Source: Spiroplasma poulsonii
GTDB taxonomy: Bacteria; Bacillota_I; Bacilli_A; Mycoplasmatales; Mycoplasmataceae
Length of the DNA: 64,000 nt
Assembly: GCF_009866525.1 (NCBI RefSeq)
Contig: NZ_CM020866.1
Coordinates: 808,260-872,259, forward strand
Direction of reading: 5' to 3'
In this document: positions 19,716-30,716 of the stretch, one piece after another
How positions within the stretch are numbered: the stretch's first letter is position 1
Layout: each line of letters begins with the position of its first letter
Notes under the pieces: model-generated
What the model was told of the DNA's origin: nothing
Database searches by the model: none
What the model saw: only the letters and a program-made list of their open reading frames with translations
Made by a program: the position numbers and the translations under genes

Positions 19716-20782
19716 AGACTTCTTGCATTACTTGTTAAAAAATTGCAAATATTTGTAAAAAAGATACTAATAGAAAAATATAATTTTAATTAATTATGTT
19801 TTTTATTTAAAAATTTAATATTTTTCCACAACGAAAAATTAATTTATTATTTAAATTATTTAATTTTAAATAAATATTTTATGTTAAATATAATAAATGT
19901 AAATTATAAATTGAGGCAATTAAATTAAATCTTAAACCAAATCTTTTTCTTCGATTACGATATTTTTCTGTAATAATTTTAAATTTTTTAAGAATAGCAA
20001 AAATATTTTCAATAATAATTCTCATTTTTGAAACTAGTCTATTATATTGCTTTTGTTCTTTGTTTAAAGGGTTTTTCTTTGTTTTCTTTGTAGGTATTAG
20101 AACATTATTGTGATTTTTTTGTATTCCTTGATAACCACTATCAACTATTAATTTGGTATTTTTTAAAATTGGGATTTTTGATTCTTTAAATAAAGCATAA
20201 TCATGTTTTTTTCCGAGCGAAAAACTTGTTGCAATAATTTTTTTGGTTTCTTGTTCGATAATTACTTGTGTTTTGATCGTGTGTTTTTTCTTTTTACCAG
20301 AATAAGATTGTTTTTGTCTTTTTTTGGGCGTTGGATTGGAGTTTCGGTAGCATCAATAATAATAGTTTTATCATTAAAATAATCATTTATTAGTGCTTTT
20401 TTACCAGCAAGTTGTTGAAAATCAGAGTTTTTAATTAAAATATCTTCAATTCACTTAATATTACGATAACAATTAGCCTCACTAATATCAAAACTTTTAC
20501 CAAGACGAAAATAAGTCTGATATTCTCGTCAATATAATAAAGTCATCAATAATCTATTTTCTAATGATAATTTATTAGTTTTACCACCTTTTTTAAATTT
20601 TTCTATTTCAGCAACTTTTAAAATATCTAACATTTTATTAAAAGTGGATTTTTTTATTCCTGTTAATCTTAACCATTCTCTATCATTAAGAGTATTAAAT
20701 TTATTATTGTTCATATTTTTATGTCCTCATAAATTATATTTTATAATAATATTTTAATAAAAAAGGGTATCGCAAGAAGTCT
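19716..20782 (-). mobile_element. IS5-family element, full length
   Basis: A 1067-bp copy in reverse orientation with AAT at 19713-19715 and 20783-20785. It lies in the gap between recD2 and the lipoprotein gene and so disrupts no coding sequence, but it may displace the lipoprotein promoter. Confidence 0.95.
19879..20714 (-). CDS. IS5-family transposase
   Basis: Both frames are open and the A7 slippage run is intact. Differences from the majority: Arg for His in the YFHLGKS segment, and His for Gln four codons before the stop. The latter is shared with the copy at 29650, which hints at a recent common source. Confidence 0.88.
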
Positions 20783-22496: not shown

Positions 22497-23563
22497 AGAC
22501 TTCTTACATTACTTGTTAAAAAATTGCAAATATTTGTAAAAAAGATACTAATAGAAAAATATAATTTTAATTAATTATGTTTTTTATTTAAAAATTTAAT
22601 ATTTTTCCACAACGAAAAATTAATTTATTATTTAAATTATTTAATTTTAAATAAATATTTTATGTTAAATATAATAATTGTAAATTATAAATTGAGGCAA
22701 TTAAATTAAATCTTAAACCAAATCTTTTTCTTCGATTACGATATTTTTCTGTAATAATTTTAAATTTTTTAAGAATAGCAAAAATATTTTCAATAATAAT
22801 TCTCATTTTTGAAACTAGTCTATTATATTGCTTTTGTTCTTTGTTTAAAGGGTTTTTCTTTGTTTTCTTTGTAGGTATTAGAACATTATTGTGATTTTTT
22901 TGTATTCCTTGATAACCACTATCAACTATTAATTTGGTATTTTTTAAAATTGGGATTTTTGATTCTTTAAATAAAGCATAATCATGTTTTTTTCCGAGCG
23001 AAAAACTTGTTGCAATAATTTTTTTGGTTTCTTGTTCGATAATTACTTGTGTTTTGATCGTGTGTTTTTTCTTTTTACCAGAATAAGATTGTTTTTGTCT
23101 TTTTTTGGGCGTTGGATTGGAGTTTCGGTAGCATCAATAATAATAGTTTTATCATTAAAATAATCATTTATTAGTGCTTTTTTACCAGCAAGTTGTTGAA
23201 AATCAGAGTTTTTAATTAAAATATCTTCAATTCACTTAATATTACGATAACAATTAGCCTCACTAATATCAAAACTTTTACCAAGATGAAAATAAGTCTG
23301 ATATTCTCGTCAATATAATAAAGTCATCAATAATCTATTTTCTAATGATAATTTATTAGTTTTACCACCTTTTTTAAATTTTTCTATTTCAGCAACTTTT
23401 AAAATATCTAACATTTTATTAAAAGTGGATTTTTTTATTCCTGTTAATCTTAACCATTCTCTATCATTAAGAGTATTAAATTTATTATTGTTCATATTTT
23501 TATGTCCTCATAAATTATATTTTATAATAATATTTTAATAAAAAAGGGTATCGCAAGAAGTCT
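22497..23563 (-). mobile_element. IS5-family element, full length
   Basis: A 1067-bp copy with ATT at 22494-22496 and 23564-23566. The right terminus reads CTTAC where others read CTTGC. It is inserted just after the lipoprotein terminator. Confidence 0.95.
22660..23495 (-). CDS. IS5-family transposase
   Basis: Two open frames joined at the A7 run, with no disabling change seen relative to the copy at 10571. Confidence 0.88.
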
Positions 23564-23726: not shown

Positions 23727-23755
23727 TTGCATTTTAAAATTAAACTTTATATTAT
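23727..23755 (+). promoter_or_regulatory. Promoter of the riboswitch/deoD operon
   Basis: TTGCAT (23727-23732) and TATTAT (23750-23755) with a 17-bp spacer put the transcript start near 23762, about 18 bases before the aptamer. Confidence 0.6.
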
Positions 23756-23779
23756 TACTTTAACAACTTTAAAAAGCAA

Positions 23780-23925
23780 TTTTGGATGTTACGGGAATTA
23801 GGTGAAAATCCTAGGCTGTCCCAGCAACTGTAAAGTGGATGAAAGCTAACATATGCCATTGAGAAGATACTTCTTGAGAAGGAATAGCGAGTAAAGTGAA
23901 ACTGAGCCAGTAGACCGATCTAAAA
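23780..23925 (+). promoter_or_regulatory. Cobalamin (adenosylcobalamin-type) riboswitch aptamer
   Basis: All core blocks of the B12 aptamer appear in order: GGGAA, GGTGAAAATCC, GCTGTCCCAGCAACTGTAA (the B12 box), a peripheral arm GCCATTGAGAAG...CTTCTTGAGAAGG, and GAGCCAGTAGACC. The closing stem pairs TTTTGGAT (23780-23787) with ATCTAAAA (23918-23925). The arm that usually lies between the first strand and GGGAA is shortened. The peripheral arm suggests the large adenosylcobalamin-binding class. A hairpin (23928-23947) and a second one around CCCTGGGG (about 23955-23985) follow as a likely switching region. The next gene is deoD, 411 bases further on. Confidence 0.92.
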
Positions 23926-24336
23926 AACATTGATATTTTATCAGTGCTGCCTTTATAGTTATTATCCCTGGGGTTGGATAGTTAATTATTTATTAGTGAA
24001 AAACTATTAAATAATAATTTGAAAGACGTCAAAAAGCGTTTTTTAGTTGTTAATTTAAAGCGATAATCCTATTAGGGCATTATTTAAAATAATAATAATT
24101 AAAAAATCTTTAAGTTTAATAAAACTAATTTTAAAATATTTTATAATTTTAATTTTTTATTAACCTAATTTATTAAATAAAAATAAAACTGTTAATTAAA
24201 CATCACTTATATGAATATATTAAAATATTCCTTTTCGTTTTGTTTAAATTTATTTTTAAGAAAAAGTATTTTAAATAATAATCTCATTAATAGGATCGTT
24301 AGTCCAATAAAGGTACAAAAAGAAGGAAATAAAAAA
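23926..24336 (+). other. Long untranslated leader between riboswitch and deoD
   Basis: It contains the hairpin CATTGATA/TATCAGTG (23928-23947), a second hairpin with loop region CCCTGGGG (23955-23985), and a possible long-range 9-bp pairing between ATCCTATTA (24066-24074) and TAATAGGAT (24288-24296) that would enclose about 210 bases. An ATG at 24211 is in frame with deoD, but the extra 42 residues are unlike DeoD proteins and have no ribosome site, so this stretch is taken as untranslated. No clear terminator is seen. Confidence 0.5.
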
Positions 24337-25047
24337 ATGACACCACATATTAATGCAAAACCAACGGATATTGCAAAAGTTGTTTTAATGCCCGGTGATT
24401 CGTTACGAGCAAAAGCAATTGCGGAAAAATATTTGACCGATTACAAATTAGTCAATGAGGTTCGAAATATGTTTATGTATACAGGAAAATATCAAGATAT
24501 TGAAATTACAATTGCTGGAAGTGGGATGGGTTGTCCAAGTATTGGAATTTATTCCTATGAATTATTTAAATTTTATGATGTTGATTATATTATTCGCATT
24601 GGTTCAGCGGGTAGTTATAAATCAGAGTTTGAACTATATGATATTTTCAATGTTCGCGAAGCGTTTGGTGAAAGTAATTATGCCAAAATTGCTGCTAATA
24701 TAGATTCTCATCTAATTCCATCAAGTGAAAAATTATTCAATACGATTGAAGATGTAGCGTTAAAGCAAGGAATCAAAACACATACTGGTACTGCCTATGC
24801 TGCTGATGTTTTTTATCGCTATGATGAGTCGTTATCATTTACGAAAGAACATAATCTAGATGTTGTTGAAATGGAATCATATGCCTTGTTTGCAAATGCA
24901 ATTGTGACCAAAAAACAAGCAGCAACATTGCTAACTATTTCTGATAACCTTGTTACAAAACAAGCAGCTTCAGCAATGGAACGCCAAAATAATTTTATGG
25001 TAATGGTGCAATTGGCGTTAACAACGGAAGTGCAATTAATGAAATAA
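24337..25047 (+). CDS. deoD: Purine-nucleoside phosphorylase DeoD
   Basis: A 236-residue hexameric-type phosphorylase (family about 235), cleaving purine (deoxy)nucleosides with phosphate to base and (deoxy)ribose 1-phosphate. Visible motifs: MPGDSLRAKAIAEKYL (phosphate site; the usual Pro of GDPLR is Ser here), AGSGMGCPSIGIYSYEL, RIGSAGSY, the sugar-binding VEMESYALF (near residue 180) and the catalytic Asp in TISDNLV (near residue 205). Start at ATG 24337 behind AGAAGGAAAT. It is the first gene of a five-gene operon under the B12 riboswitch. Confidence 0.95.
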   Translation: MTPHINAKPTDIAKVVLMPGDSLRAKAIAEKYLTDYKLVNEVRNMFMYTGKYQDIEITIAGSGMGCPSIGIYSYELFKFYDVDYIIRIGSAGSYKSEFELYDIFNVREAFGESNYAKIAANIDSHLIPSSEKLFNTIEDVALKQGIKTHTGTAYAADVFYRYDESLSFTKEHNLDVVEMESYALFANAIVTKKQAATLLTISDNLVTKQAASAMERQNNFMVMVQLALTTEVQLMK

Positions 25048-25065: not shown

Positions 25066-25689
25066 ATGAAAATTGCTGTTTTTGGAACTGTTGGTGCTGG
25101 GAAAACAAAAGTTAGTGAGACGTTATGTCAACAGTTAAATTATAATTTATTTAAAGAACCCTTAGAAGAAAACCCATATTTTAATGATTTTTATCAGGAT
25201 ATGAAAGGATTTGCCTTTAAAATGCAAATTTACATGTTGACAACCAGAATTGAACAATTTTTTGAAATTGATAATTTAGAAGATACTGTTTTTGATCGCA
25301 CGATTTTAGAAGATCCGGTTTTTGTTCGGGTTTCACATTTGTTAGAAATTATGAATGATGTTGATTTTAAAGTTTACAATCGTTTTTTTCAAAATGTTAT
25401 TACACCAATTTTAAAACAAAAATTAGGGTTTGATGTCATTATTTATTTAAAAGTTTCAACAGCAAAAGCTGTTGAACGGATTAATAAGCGTGGCCGCGTA
25501 TTAGAATTAGAAACGCCATACCATTATTGGGAAAAATTAAATGAACAATATGAGGTCTTATATTATGAATTAAAGGATTATTATCATTTCATTGTTGTTG
25601 ATGCTGATAACGATAATTTTGCAGAAAAAATGACCTTTATTATGCAGAAATTATTAATGATAGATAATAAAGTTCCTTGTTTAATTTAA
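25066..25689 (+). CDS. Deoxynucleoside kinase (deoxyadenosine/deoxyguanosine type)
   Basis: A 207-residue kinase that phosphorylates deoxynucleosides using ATP. The P-loop GTVGAGKTK lies at residues 7-15. The segment FKEPLEENPYFNDFYQD is followed by DRTILEDPVF (the DRS-type motif, near residue 85) and the Arg-rich lid KRGRVLELETPYHYW (near residue 145). This pattern is typical of the Mollicute and Bacillus dAK/dGK family. It lies 18 bp after deoD behind GGAGGAG. Substrate preference cannot be decided from sequence. Together with the phosphorylase and transferase in the operon it supplies dNMPs from salvaged nucleosides. Confidence 0.9.
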   Translation: MKIAVFGTVGAGKTKVSETLCQQLNYNLFKEPLEENPYFNDFYQDMKGFAFKMQIYMLTTRIEQFFEIDNLEDTVFDRTILEDPVFVRVSHLLEIMNDVDFKVYNRFFQNVITPILKQKLGFDVIIYLKVSTAKAVERINKRGRVLELETPYHYWEKLNEQYEVLYYELKDYYHFIVVDADNDNFAEKMTFIMQKLLMIDNKVPCLI

Positions 25690-25734: not shown

Positions 25735-27720
25735 ATGAAAGATACAAATAATAATATTGAAACAAAAAGCTTAAGTAATTTACGAATTTTAGGCTTAGAT
25801 CCAATTATCTATAATAAAACTGGCCATCCAGGGATTGTTTTAAGTGCAGCGCCAATGATGCAAGCAATTTATTTAAACAATTTAATTGCTAATCCAGCTG
25901 TCCCCGATTGAATTAATCGTGACCGTTTTGTGCTATCGCCAGGACATGCGTCAACGCTTCAATATGCAATTTTACATTTTGCAGGTTATGATTTATCAAT
26001 TGATGATTTAAAAAATTATCGCCATATTAATTCAAAAACCCCAGCGCACCCTGAATATGGTGTAACCCCAGGGGTTGATAATTCATCGGGACCATTAGGC
26101 CAAGGTGTTGGTTATGGCGTTGGAATGGCATTAGCAGAACAACATTTAGCTGCTAAGTTTAATAAATCAGGACATGACATTATTGATCATTATACTTATG
26201 TTTTGTGTAGTGATGGTGATTTACAAGAGGGGGGTGCTCTTGAGGCAATCCAGTTAGCTGGAGTATGAAAGTTAAATAAATTAATTATGTTGTATGATTC
26301 AAATGATTGTCAATTAGATACCAAGTGTGATGAAGTTTTAAAAGTAAATTATCAAAAATTTTTTGAAGCACAAAATTGAAATTATATTCGCGTTGATAAT
26401 GCTGATGAAGATTTAACAGCAATTAAAAAGGCAATCACAGCAGCGCAAAAAAGTGATAAGCCAACTTTAATTGAGTGTAAAACAATTATTGGTTATGGGC
26501 ATCCAAAACAAGGCTCACCAATGCATTCATCACCGTTTACAGCAGAAGAAATGCAACAAGTGCAAACCTTTTATGATTTTGAACATCCGCAATTTTATGT
26601 TGACCCAGATGTTAAAACTTATTGAAAGGATGCTTTTATTAAACGCGGTCAAGAAACATACCAAACATGAGCAAAAAAATTAAAAGCTTATCAAACTGCT
26701 TTTCCCGAGGAATTCAAGCAATTATTTGCTGCTCCGACTGTTGAATTTGATGCTTTTAAATCCTTTTTAACAACTGATCAAAATAAAAAAGCAGGAACAA
26801 GAATTATTATGGGGGATGTTTTTAAATATTATCAACAAAAATGTCCTAATAATATGTTTGGTGGTAGTGCTGATTTGGGAACAGCGACAAAGATTATTGG
26901 TTATAATGGTTCATGAACAATTAAGACACCCCAAAATAATAATATTCATTTTGGGGTTCGGGAATTTGCCGCCGGGACAATTAGCATTGGAATTGAATTA
27001 CATCAAGGATTAAAAGGATTTAATTCAACGTTTTTAATTTTTTCTGATTATATGAAACCGTGCATTAGAATGGCATGTATTCAAAATTTACCGGTTATTT
27101 TTGCTTTTTCACATGACTCAATTGGGGTTGGTTTTGATGGTAAGTCGCACCAGCCAGTTGAACAATTAGCAATGTTACGAAATTGTCCGAATTTAAACGT
27201 TTTACGTCCCGCTGATATTAATGAAGCAATTGGTTGTTTAAAACTTGTTGTTGAAACAAAAAAAACGCCTTCAGCATTAATTTTATCGCGCCAAGATACC
27301 CCTTATCAGTTAGCTACAACTTGTTATAAAAAAACATTGCAGGGAGGATATATTGTTGTTGAAGAAGACAAGACAAAACCATTAACGGCAATTATTATTG
27401 CAACAGGAACCGAAGTCCCAATTGCAATTAATGCGGCTAAGACAATGAAAGCAAATATTCGGGTGGTTTCAATGCCATCGGTTGAATTATTTGACCAGCA
27501 ACCAATTGCTTATCAAGAAAGCGTAATTCCAAAAGACTTTCCAAAAGTAATTGCAATTGAGTTTTCTAATGACTATGTTTGATACAAATTTGTTGGTAAA
27601 ACTGGTTTAGTAATTGGTGTTGATGATTATGGTTTATCAGGAAGTGCTGATGCTGTTATTAAGTACAAATGCTTAGATCAAGACACGATTATTCAAAGAA
27701 TTGAAAAATATTTAGGTTAA
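25735..27720 (+). CDS. tkt: Transketolase
   Basis: A 661-residue thiamine-diphosphate enzyme moving two-carbon units between pentose, triose and hexose phosphates. The N-terminal domain has [18 protein letters not shown] and [17 protein letters not shown], then the ThDP motif [13 protein letters not shown] (near residue 160) and its end DSNDCQL. The central domain has [10 protein letters not shown] and [37 protein letters not shown] (near residue 465) is the usual His-rich loop. The C-terminal domain is complete. About ten Trp are UGA. Starts behind AGGAGG at 25721-25726. In the operon it links ribose/deoxyribose phosphates from nucleoside breakdown to glycolysis. Confidence 0.96.
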
Positions 27721-27723
27721 GTA

Positions 27724-28344
27724 ATGAATGATTTACCCAAAATTTTAGAACAGAAAGTTTTTTATGTTATTCGTAATCAAGATTATAATGTTGCCCAGCA
27801 AATTTGTGAAATGTTAATCAATTTGCAAGTGACATGTTTAGAATTAACTTTTACAATTCCAAAGGTTGAATTATTAATTAAAGCATTACGAAAAAAATAT
27901 CCAACAATTTTAGTTGGCGCTGGAACCGTTTTAACATTAGCAGAAGCAATCTTAGCAGCTGAAGCAGGAGCACAATTTTTAGTTGGCCCTGTTTTTAACC
28001 CGACAGTTAGTGAATTTTGTCATCGCAAAGGATTATTTTATATTCCAGGAGCAATGACCTTACAGGAAGTGACGAATATTGTTAATGCTGATTGAGAAAT
28101 TATTAAGATTTTTCCAGCGACTGCTTTTAAATTAAATTTTATTCAAACTTTAAAAACCTTTTTTCCAACAAAAACATATATGGCTTCAGGGGGAATTAAT
28201 TTAACAAATTTAAAAGAAGCAAAAACGCTAGGGTATGACTTAGTAGCAGTTGGGGCTTTTGTAACGGGTGATATTAATAATAAAATTTTTGAACAAGAAA
28301 AAATAAAAACAATAATTAGCACAATTAACCAAGAAGGAGTATAA
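27724..28344 (+). CDS. eda: KDPG/KHG-type aldolase
   Basis: A 206-residue class I aldolase of the Eda/DgoA family. Catalytic Glu in CLELTFTIPKVE (near residue 42), phosphate- and substrate-binding VGAGTVLTLAEA (near residue 63), the Schiff-base Lys in IIKIFPATAF (near residue 128), and SGGINLTNLKEA (near residue 153). Its start lies three bases after the tkt stop, so translation is coupled. The Entner-Doudoroff pathway is not expected in Spiroplasma and no other pathway gene is here, so the true substrate may be another 2-keto-3-deoxy sugar phosphate; the nucleoside operon context is unusual. Confidence 0.88.
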
Positions 28345-28346
28345 TA

Positions 28347-28928
28347 ATGCAAGATAATAAAAAAGTAATTTATAATGCTGGAAGCATGTTTACTGAAGCA
28401 CAATGAAATACCCGAAAAGTAGAAGGGGATCGGTTACGAGCAATGTTTCCTGATTTTATTATTGGAAATCCAGTTGATTTTGAAACAAATCAAACCGTCC
28501 GTCCAACTAATAAAGCAATTTTTGACTTAGATTATGCTGGTTTAACCACCGCTGATTATGTCATTTTTGAGTTAGATGGATGAGATTCTGGGACTCATAT
28601 GGAATTTGGATTAATCGTCGAACAAGCAATTCATAATAAGAAAAAATATCTCTTCCCAATTATTTCTGATTTTCGAGTACAACAGGGAATTTTAAAAGGA
28701 GAATGTCCTGGTTTTGGCCTAAATGAAATGTTAACAGGGGCATTGTATCATGAACCGTTAAATAGTGGTAATGTTCCTCAAATTACTTTATGTAGTTCAC
28801 ATGCAATGGCGTGTGCAGCAATTAAAGCGATTGAAACTGGGGATGTAAAAGATTATCGCCAAAAATATGATATAAAAGAAATCTTTAAAGAAGATAAATT
28901 ATATCATGGCTTTGATTGTCATATTTAA
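28347..28928 (+). CDS. Nucleoside 2-deoxyribosyltransferase
   Basis: A 193-residue enzyme exchanging bases between 2'-deoxynucleosides. The N-terminal YNAGSMFTEAQWNTRKVEGD matches the family, as does DYVIFELDGWDSGTHMEFGL, where the Asp pair binds substrate and the Glu of MEFG (near residue 90) is the expected nucleophile. The ATG lies 2 bp after the eda stop, behind GAAGGAG, so it is the last gene of the operon. A strong terminator follows. Confidence 0.93.
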
Positions 28929-29649: not shown

Positions 29650-30716
29650 AGACTTCTTGCGATACCCTTTTTTATTAAAATATTATTATAAAATATAATT
29701 TATGAGGACATAAAAATATGAACAATAATAAATTTAATACTCTTAATGATAGAGAATGGTTAAGATTAACAGGAATAAAAAAATCCACTTTTAATAAAAT
29801 GTTAGATATTTTAAAAGTTGCTGAAATAGAAAAATTTAAAAAAGGTGGTAAAACTAATAAATTATCATTAGAAAATAGATTATTGATGACTTTATTATAT
29901 TGACGAGAATATCAGACTTATTTTCATCTTGGTAAAAGTTTTGATATTAGTGAGGCTAATTGTTATCGTAATATTAAGTGAATTGAAGATATTTTAATTA
30001 AAAACTCTGATTTTCAACAACTTGCTGGTAAAAAAGCACTAATAAATGATTATTTTAATGATAAAACTATTATTATTGATGCTACCGAAACTCCAATCCA
30101 ACGCCCAAAAAAAGACAAAAACAATCTTATTCTGGTAAAAAGAAAAAACACACGATCAAAACACAAGTAATTATCGAACAAGAAACCAAAAAAATTATTG
30201 CAACAAGTTTTTCGCTCGGAAAAAAACATGATTATGCTTTATTTAAAGAATCAAAAATCCCAATTTTAAAAAATACCAAATTAATAGTTGATAGTGGTTA
30301 TCAAGGAATACAAAAAAATCACAATAATGTTCTAATACCTACAAAGAAAACAAAGAAAAACCCTTTAAACAAAGAACAAAAGCAATATAATAGACTAGTT
30401 TCAAAAATGAGAATTATTATTGAAAATATTTTTGCTATTCTTAAAAAATTTAAAATTATTACAGAAAAATATCGTAATCGAAGAAAAAGATTTGGTTTAA
30501 GATTTAATTTAATTGCCTCAATTTATAATTTACATTTATTATATTTAACATAAAATATTTATTTAAAATTAAATAATTTAAATAATAAATTAATTTTTCG
30601 TTGTGGAAAAATATTAAATTTTTAAATAAAAAACATAATTAATTAAAATTATATTTTTCTATTAGTATCTTTTTTACAAATATTTGCAATTTTTTAACAA
30701 GTAATGCAAGAAGTCT
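29650..30716 (+). mobile_element. IS5-family element, full length
   Basis: A 1067-bp copy flanked by ATT at 29647-29649 and 30717-30719, between two genes and disrupting neither. Confidence 0.95.
29718..30553 (+). CDS. IS5-family transposase
   Basis: Both frames are open with the A7 run kept. It shares the C-terminal Gln-to-His variant with the copy at 19879. Confidence 0.88.

Follow-up and report, generated by a model that had tools for sequence, protein, structure and literature searches.

A cobalamin riboswitch upstream of a deoxynucleoside salvage operon in Spiroplasma poulsonii: a probable OFF switch for B12-independent dNTP supply

The locus described here lies within a 64-kb stretch of the Spiroplasma poulsonii genome (hereafter the window; the genome is designated G000), and all parts of its leader and operon are found on the forward (+) strand. 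A cmscan search of the whole window returned a single riboswitch, an RF00174 Cobalamin element at 23767-23937 that scores 80.2 bits (gathering score 31.5; E 3.8e-18) and covers the complete model from 1 to 189, confirming by covariance model that the element is a cobalamin riboswitch of RF00174. The initial annotation had recognized a nearly complete B12 aptamer, which this search bears out, and had begun it at 23780; the element is real, but this coordinate leaves out the 5′ element and 13 bases at the start of the aptamer. Four RF00174 elements are present in G000, the other three scoring 102.7, 82.6, and 80.7 bits. The RF00174 alignment of the aptamer includes a large peripheral stem; a class I peripheral domain is one mark of the AdoCbl-selective subclass Cbl-I, to which the element may belong. 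A probable sigma-70-type promoter (TTGCAT-17 bp-TATTAT, 23727-23755) was recognized upstream by eye; nine genomes share it, and in their aligned leaders conservation runs from the promoter to the start codon, the DNA upstream of the promoter being unrelated. The promoter had earlier been judged a good one; it was missed by a generic consensus promoter scan.

The predicted 5′ end of the RNA is formed by the element UUAACAACUUUAAAAAGC (23760-23777), which overlaps the start of the aptamer and pairs with the U-tract of the attenuator. Loop L5 of the aptamer (UGUCCCA, 23817-23823) is predicted to form a kissing interaction with L13, the loop of hairpin P13 (UAUCC-CUGGGGUU-GGAUA, 23963-23980), which was delimited from sequence and alignment. 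The CCCA of L5 is found in 9/9 leaders and is complementary to UGGG at 23969-23972; this CCCA/UGGG complementarity is kept in every intact leader, and P13 is changed only in the decayed copy of G013. Further downstream, at 24025-24053, lies an attenuator-like hairpin, GACGU-CAAAAA-GCGUU, followed by a U-tract and UUUUUUAGUUGUUAA. The hairpin is weak (-2.7 kcal/mol), is kept in 7/8 intact leaders (the G002 stem has a C-to-A change), and is laid out like the stronger terminators that belong to uptake and nrdFIE riboswitches in relatives. A spacer of 280 nt separates the attenuator from the ribosome binding site of deoD (Shine-Dalgarno GAAGGAA, 24322-24328). Within this spacer, AUCCUAUU at 24068-24075 (CCUAUU) can pair with AAUAGGAU at 24286-24293 (AAUAGG), just before the deoD ribosome binding site, and the other of the two clades that carry this leader retains the pairing via one compensatory change (CCUAUC/GAUAGG); it may be a translational element.

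The genes below the aptamer follow in the order deoD, dNK, tkt, eda (a KDPG-type aldolase gene), and an NDT-like gene, with tight spacing except between the first pair, and their profile scores support the functions given to them in the initial annotation, the last being held to NDT-like. The first, deoD (24337-25047, start codon ATG at 24337), encodes a 236-aa purine-nucleoside phosphorylase (TIGR00107, 236.6 bits; cut-off 232). It is followed by a 207-aa deoxynucleoside kinase (dNK, 25066-25689; PF01712, 134 bits), whose best solved relative, at 188 bits by phmmer, is 2jaq, deposited as a deoxyguanosine kinase; G000 has two dNK loci, of which the operon copy is the second. The third gene (25735-27720) encodes a 661-aa transketolase paralogue (TIGR00232, 693 bits; cut-off 682) and is likewise a second copy, the housekeeping transketolase being found at G000:C1:1067076. 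The operon enzyme retains the active-site His, Asp, Arg, and Glu, and motifs around its substrate channel are altered, with GFDGKSH for GEDGPTH, HSSP for the HGAP loop, and Ala for a phosphate-contacting Ser. The fourth product is a 206-aa class I aldolase of the KDPG/KHG type (27724-28344; PF01081, 103 bits vs 27.8) that scores below the NCBIfam subfamily cut-offs; its best solved relative is the KDPG aldolase 1wa3, and Lys128 of its IIKIFPA segment aligns with the motif of the active-site Schiff-base Lys (KLFP of 1wa3). The last is a 193-aa nucleoside 2′-deoxyribosyltransferase-like protein (28347-28928), which at 27.2 bits does not pass the PF05014 gathering threshold of 28.8 bits. Its orthologues match PF05014 in 8/8 cases (best E 1e-7) and conserve DGWDSGTHMEFG with a candidate nucleophile Glu; an AlphaFold model built with 8 close sequences reached a pLDDT of 39 and was discarded. 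The gene is accordingly called NDT-like here and not a proven member of PF05014. By family membership, dNK, DeoD, and the NDT-like protein together would constitute a salvage route.

Three near-identical 150-aa transposase-like ORFs, representing one insertion sequence, are found in the window at 20262-20714, 23043-23495, and 29718-30170; one of them ends ~230 bp before the deo promoter is reached and another lies after the operon.

The outer stem noted previously is present as a duplex of 23760-23777 with 24036-24053 (-13.4 kcal/mol); an ungapped complementarity search misses this helix, which contains a two-base bulge, and the duplex test detects it. Across 25 riboswitch leaders, the 5′ and 3′ elements of the same leader pair with a mean energy of -10.2 kcal/mol, vs -6.4 kcal/mol for cross-clade pairs, and 0/1000 permutations reach the observed mean, a result that overstates the number of independent events because the 25 leaders are related. 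Terminator hairpins come after most of these riboswitches, beside uptake genes and nrdFIE. Leaders of relatives with the same arrangement have clear terminators, of the type ACAUCC...GGGGAUGU-UUUU (-11.6 kcal/mol) or of a second type, CACGAUUU...AAAUCGUG-UUUUU (-6.7 to -9.1 kcal/mol), and their 5′ element varies together with the U-tract, as ACAACUAAA/UUUAGUUGU in one set and GAAAUAAAAA/UUUUUAUUUC in another. Since the helix between the 5′ end and the U-tract captures the last bases of the terminator stem, it probably acts as an antiterminator, possibly an unusual one belonging to this leader family. The weakness of the deo hairpin means that control may be partial or lie elsewhere and, taken together with the 280-nt spacer, that it could be partial or translational. 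A covarying 5′ end and U-tract were seen in leaders L047, L057, L073, L143, L144, L148, L068-L071, and L157-L160, and in the window at 23760-24053.

At least one RF00174 element was found in 41/149 relatives, and nine genomes of the genus show the deo layout (G000, G001, G002, G004, G005, G010, G011, G012, and G013), eight of which are intact or nearly so; the tkt gene of G011 is frameshifted and the G013 copy is decayed. A genome search for nrdJ and btu-like genes found both NrdJ and BtuR in G000. The NrdJ protein is intact at 859 aa (PRK08115, 1306 bits vs 854; TIGR02504, 554 bits), the adenosyltransferase BtuR is also intact, and whole-genome HMM searches of G000 returned no NrdF and no NrdD. 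By the same profiles, NrdJ is the sole reductase in G000, G004, G010, and G012 (TIGR02504 over its cut-off; no NrdF or NrdD), while HMM searches found no reductase of any class in G001, G002, G005, G011, and G013. The first four of these RNR-less genomes keep the deo operon and its switch, with the frameshifted tkt in G011, and the fifth has the decayed copy. G003, G008, and G009 combine NrdJ with a class Ib enzyme, carry a B12 riboswitch on nrdFIE, and have no deo operon. The operon is also missing from G006, which has NrdJ only, and from G007, which has no reductase; with neither RNR nor operon, G007 indicates that the operon is not strictly required for RNR-less growth. Within the genus, none of the 9 operon genomes has NrdF and none of the 3 NrdF genomes has the operon (Fisher p 0.027, uncorrected for phylogeny). 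Over the 149 genomes, RF00174 is found in 24/30 with NrdJ vs 17/119 without it (odds ratio 24), and BtuR co-occurs with NrdJ at an odds ratio of 264, both values again being uncorrected for phylogeny. Absence calls are HMM searches of assemblies rated 95-99.9% complete. No RNR of any class was found also in G007, G016, and G026, and none of the RNR-less G001, G002, G005, G007, G011, G013, G016, and G026 is cited as an RNR-less example in the portion of PMC10121223 consulted.

The other targets of this riboswitch family fall into two kinds, B12-independent reductases and candidate uptake genes. RF00174 elements precede class Ib nrdFIE in G003, G008, G009, G025, G029, G054, G019, G037, G063, G076, G081, G086, and G094, and class III nrdD in G003 (L056, G003:C1:163178-174348) and in G009 (L062), where nrdD is broken. 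Remnants of RF00174 scoring 22-27 bits, below the cut-off, are found just upstream of nrdF in G030, G035, G049, and G053 (~C1:101-107 kb), which have a class Ib RNR and no intact NrdJ. Within the family, RF00174 also precedes candidate uptake genes, which comprise those for an ECF S component-like integral membrane protein and small secreted proteins as well as ABC genes, and in one uptake-type locus BtuR (PF02572, 167 bits) lies behind the riboswitch. The ECF S-component label of cluster c2 was assigned by eye, and the related cluster c239 matches PF12822 weakly (E 2.5e-4); a DUF4430 label for the small secreted proteins encoded next to the ECF-like gene was dropped, as no Pfam match was obtained. 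Clusters c13, c16, c5, c19, c31, and c32, which lie behind riboswitches (e.g., L048, L049, and L052) and comprise a lipoprotein as well as small proteins that are secreted or membrane-bound, are candidates for Mollicute B12 uptake; c13, c16, c19, c31, and c32 gave no Pfam match, apart from a weak ABC-2 match for c13. Uptake genes and B12-independent isozymes are sensible targets only under repression by B12, and the deo operon is thus most simply placed in the same OFF regulon.

The remark that spiroplasmas are not known to make B12 needs amendment, since synthesis is not needed and G000 has both an adenosyltransferase and a dependent enzyme. What was said of B12 uptake also needs amendment: relatives have candidate uptake genes behind paralogous riboswitches and three of the four riboswitch operons of G000 are broken. 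The gene sets behind these other three elements (G000:C1:1318295, 1810373, and 127662; L034, L035, and L036) have been disrupted in different ways: c19 is cut after 75 aa and c2 is gone from the neighbourhood, c16-c5 is gone, and c32 is split by ~1 kb. Two are thus broken by clear loss or truncation and one is split, leaving deo as the only intact riboswitch operon. Of the links to B12 suggested at the outset, the one that has gained support is a dNTP supply controlled in concert with a B12-dependent RNR, from NrdJ and BtuR in a genome without NrdF or NrdD and from the switches of relatives on nrdFIE and nrdD.

We consider it likely, from comparison of sequences, that the element is an AdoCbl-sensing OFF switch of a B12-independent dNTP supply operon. 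The only RNR of G000 needs B12 and the salvage genes would not, and the cell therefore probably turns salvage on when B12 is short. For this scheme we infer ligand binding, the sign of regulation, the termination step, the enzyme activities, and the roles of the transketolase and the aldolase. When AdoCbl is plentiful, NrdJ, as the only and AdoCbl-dependent RNR, would make the deoxynucleotides, and the ligand-bound aptamer, closed by P1 and the L5-L13 kissing loop, would favour the attenuator hairpin and U-tract, keeping deoD-dNK-tkt-eda-ndt low. When B12 is scarce, NrdJ would stop, and in the ligand-free leader the 5′ end would pair with the U-tract and the foot of the hairpin, allowing antitermination and expression of the operon. 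DeoD and the deoxyribosyltransferase would then remodel scavenged deoxynucleosides, which the kinase would convert to dNMPs, and salvage would take the place held in relatives by nrdFIE or nrdD under the same kind of switch.

Several observations count against this OFF-switch reading, among them the weak attenuator hairpin with its long spacer, the existence of G007, and the descent of the switch from an uptake-operon riboswitch and not an nrdFIE one. Another dNK and a deoC sit outside the operon without a cobalamin switch, no dedicated deoxynucleoside importer was found within the operon, and the transketolase and KDPG aldolase have no agreed role in salvage. In addition, the broken uptake candidates of G000 place the AdoCbl supply to the switch today in doubt, and decay of the operon has begun in two RNR-less relatives, with the tkt frameshift of G011 and the degraded copy of G013.

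An alternative in which the operon serves deoxynucleoside or pentose catabolism for carbon and energy, B12 control mirroring the general nutrient state of the host and not RNR, is unlikely. DeoD and the KDPG aldolase do look catabolic, as does the transketolase, whose subfamily in G025 adjoins a sugar PTS and a ribulose-phosphate epimerase. However, deoB was not found by TIGR01696 in the whole genus, deoC is located elsewhere, the operon genomes lack KdgK, which partners Eda in G003, and the operon contains two anabolic salvage enzymes, dNK and NDT, and tracks the absence of class I RNR.

Slightly less likely still is a relic, namely a leader orphaned by the loss of its B12-uptake operon and now acting as a mere promoter-bearing leader for deoD, an explanation that had also been raised in the initial annotation. 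Its account of ancestry is half right. In the aptamer tree the deo aptamer is sister to the aptamer of the c63-c2 uptake operon of G003 and G009 (99% bootstrap), and the breakage by insertion sequences of the uptake operons behind the other riboswitches of G000 fits the same picture. Placement beside the uptake aptamer and not beside the nrdFIE ones indicates that the switch was probably recruited from an uptake operon, and the tree rejects inheritance from an nrdFIE riboswitch. As an explanation of the present element the relic fails, given the evidence for purifying selection. Divergence between the clades is 6% in the aptamer and in the segment from P13 to the U-tract, compared with 28-35% in the rest of the spacer and 47-54% at four-fold sites of the five operon genes. 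The switch is therefore under strong purifying selection, and both clades retain its aptamer, kissing loop, 5′ element, and U-tract before the same genes. This conservation of aptamer and attenuator, and the recurrence of the layout in eight congeners, mean that the deo riboswitch is not a relic, and the only visibly broken switch copy, in G013, has a broken operon too.

The sign of regulation is not readable from sequence alone, and the deo terminator is weak; both leave some room for an ON switch, in which B12-dependent induction would match salvage to NrdJ activity. We regard this as improbable, because the order of parts in the deo leader is that of the uptake-gene and nrdFIE leaders, which is sensible only under OFF control. 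Characterised RF00174 switches are, moreover, mostly OFF switches.

It is similarly improbable that the operon constitutes a de novo deoxynucleotide route needing neither B12, ribonucleotide reduction, nor outside deoxyribose. In such a route, the aldolase would join pyruvate and glyceraldehyde 3-phosphate to KDPG, which the operon transketolase, as a divergent ThDP enzyme, would decarboxylate to 2-deoxyribose 5-phosphate, with matching stereocentres. A pentomutase would then yield the 1-phosphate, to which DeoD would add a purine; the deoxyribosyltransferase would pass the sugar on to further bases, with dNMPs then produced by the kinase. A weaker form of the proposal has the aldolase acting as a synthetic DERA. 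Retention of tkt and the aldolase gene in G001 and G002, which lack RNR and deoC, favours the route, and the absence of KdgK, the usual partner of the aldolase, from the operon genomes favours it a little. Against it, TIGR01696 found no deoB across the genus (a search of that family, PGM-type mutases aside), tkt and eda are gone or broken in G013 and tkt is frameshifted in G011, and the transketolase of G025 shares two of the operon-tkt changes, A385/F468, in an ordinary pentose locus.

The suggestion that DeoD disposes of 5′-deoxyadenosine released from coenzyme B12, hence the B12 switch, is very hard to credit, for its only point is a purine nucleoside phosphorylase as first gene, whereas DeoD scores as the ordinary type (TIGR00107/PRK05819), far below the MTA/SAH nucleosidase cut-offs, the four other genes would go unexplained, genomes without NrdJ retain the operon, and class II RNR regenerates its coenzyme.

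Salvage in place of ribonucleotide reduction is a known way of life, Ureaplasma being an RNR-less example. E. coli deprived of RNR can live on deoxynucleosides when given a Mycoplasma dNK (PMC10121223), and the RNR-less Borrelia burgdorferi relies on the PF05014 deoxyribosyltransferase BB0426 (PMC2764106). The OFF-switch reading of the deo operon resembles these cases in that a deoxyribosyltransferase of the PF05014 kind and a dNK-type kinase would supply dNTPs without reduction, and in the absence of deoB. It differs in that salvage is here joined to a riboswitch, B12 switching of salvage not being known in those organisms, and in that an intact B12-dependent RNR is encoded elsewhere in the genome.

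The system is best read as a variant of the nrdAB/NrdJ and metE/MetH logic. In Streptomyces, a coenzyme B12 riboswitch controls nrdABS (class Ia RNR), with NrdJ alongside (Borovok 2006, as cited in PMC4991794). The arrangement here is likewise a cobalamin riboswitch on a B12-independent deoxynucleotide route beside NrdJ, and several Spiroplasmataceae do exactly so with nrdFIE; unlike in Streptomyces, the route in G000 is a salvage operon in a genome without class I RNR, and several relatives have also lost NrdJ. A cobalamin riboswitch on metE controls the B12-independent methionine synthase beside MetH, e.g., in M. tuberculosis (PMC11260477). The isozyme-swap principle would be shared, B12 presumably shutting off the B12-independent alternative here too, but the alternative in this case is a five-gene pathway using scavenged nucleosides. 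The deo element belongs to the same aptamer family as the RF00174 riboswitches of B12 uptake, an uptake-operon aptamer being its closest relative, and differs from them in its target genes and its weaker attenuator hairpin. If correct, the OFF-switch reading would extend isozyme swapping by B12 riboswitches from enzyme-for-enzyme to reductase-for-salvage, and would place it in Mollicutes, where a search of open-access literature turned up no described cobalamin riboswitch.

Such a switch would also offer a path to RNR loss. Should B12 or its uptake fail, AdoCbl-repressed salvage should be permanently on, and NrdJ and BtuR could then decay, as in five congeneric genomes. One of them, G002, has diverged only recently from G012, which still has NrdJ (0.3% in 1.3 kb of coding sequence of the operon); G002 has lost NrdJ, BtuR, and the uptake riboswitch and has kept the deo operon. 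Present states of these genomes suggest an order of events in which failure of the B12 supply comes first, constant salvage expression follows, and NrdJ can then be dispensed with. The eLife 2023 study of RNR-less E. coli (PMC10121223) leaves open whether deoxyribose is made in any organism through an aldolase in place of RNR, and the deo operon of RNR-less genomes that are also without deoC is a candidate for such aldolase-made deoxyribose.

In the RNR-less G016, locus L138 (G016:C2:26505-30558) contains a gene for a KDPG-type aldolase followed by genes for an acetolactate-synthase-like ThDP enzyme and an acetolactate-decarboxylase-like protein, as identified by eye, so that an aldolase again lies beside a ThDP enzyme in a genome without RNR.
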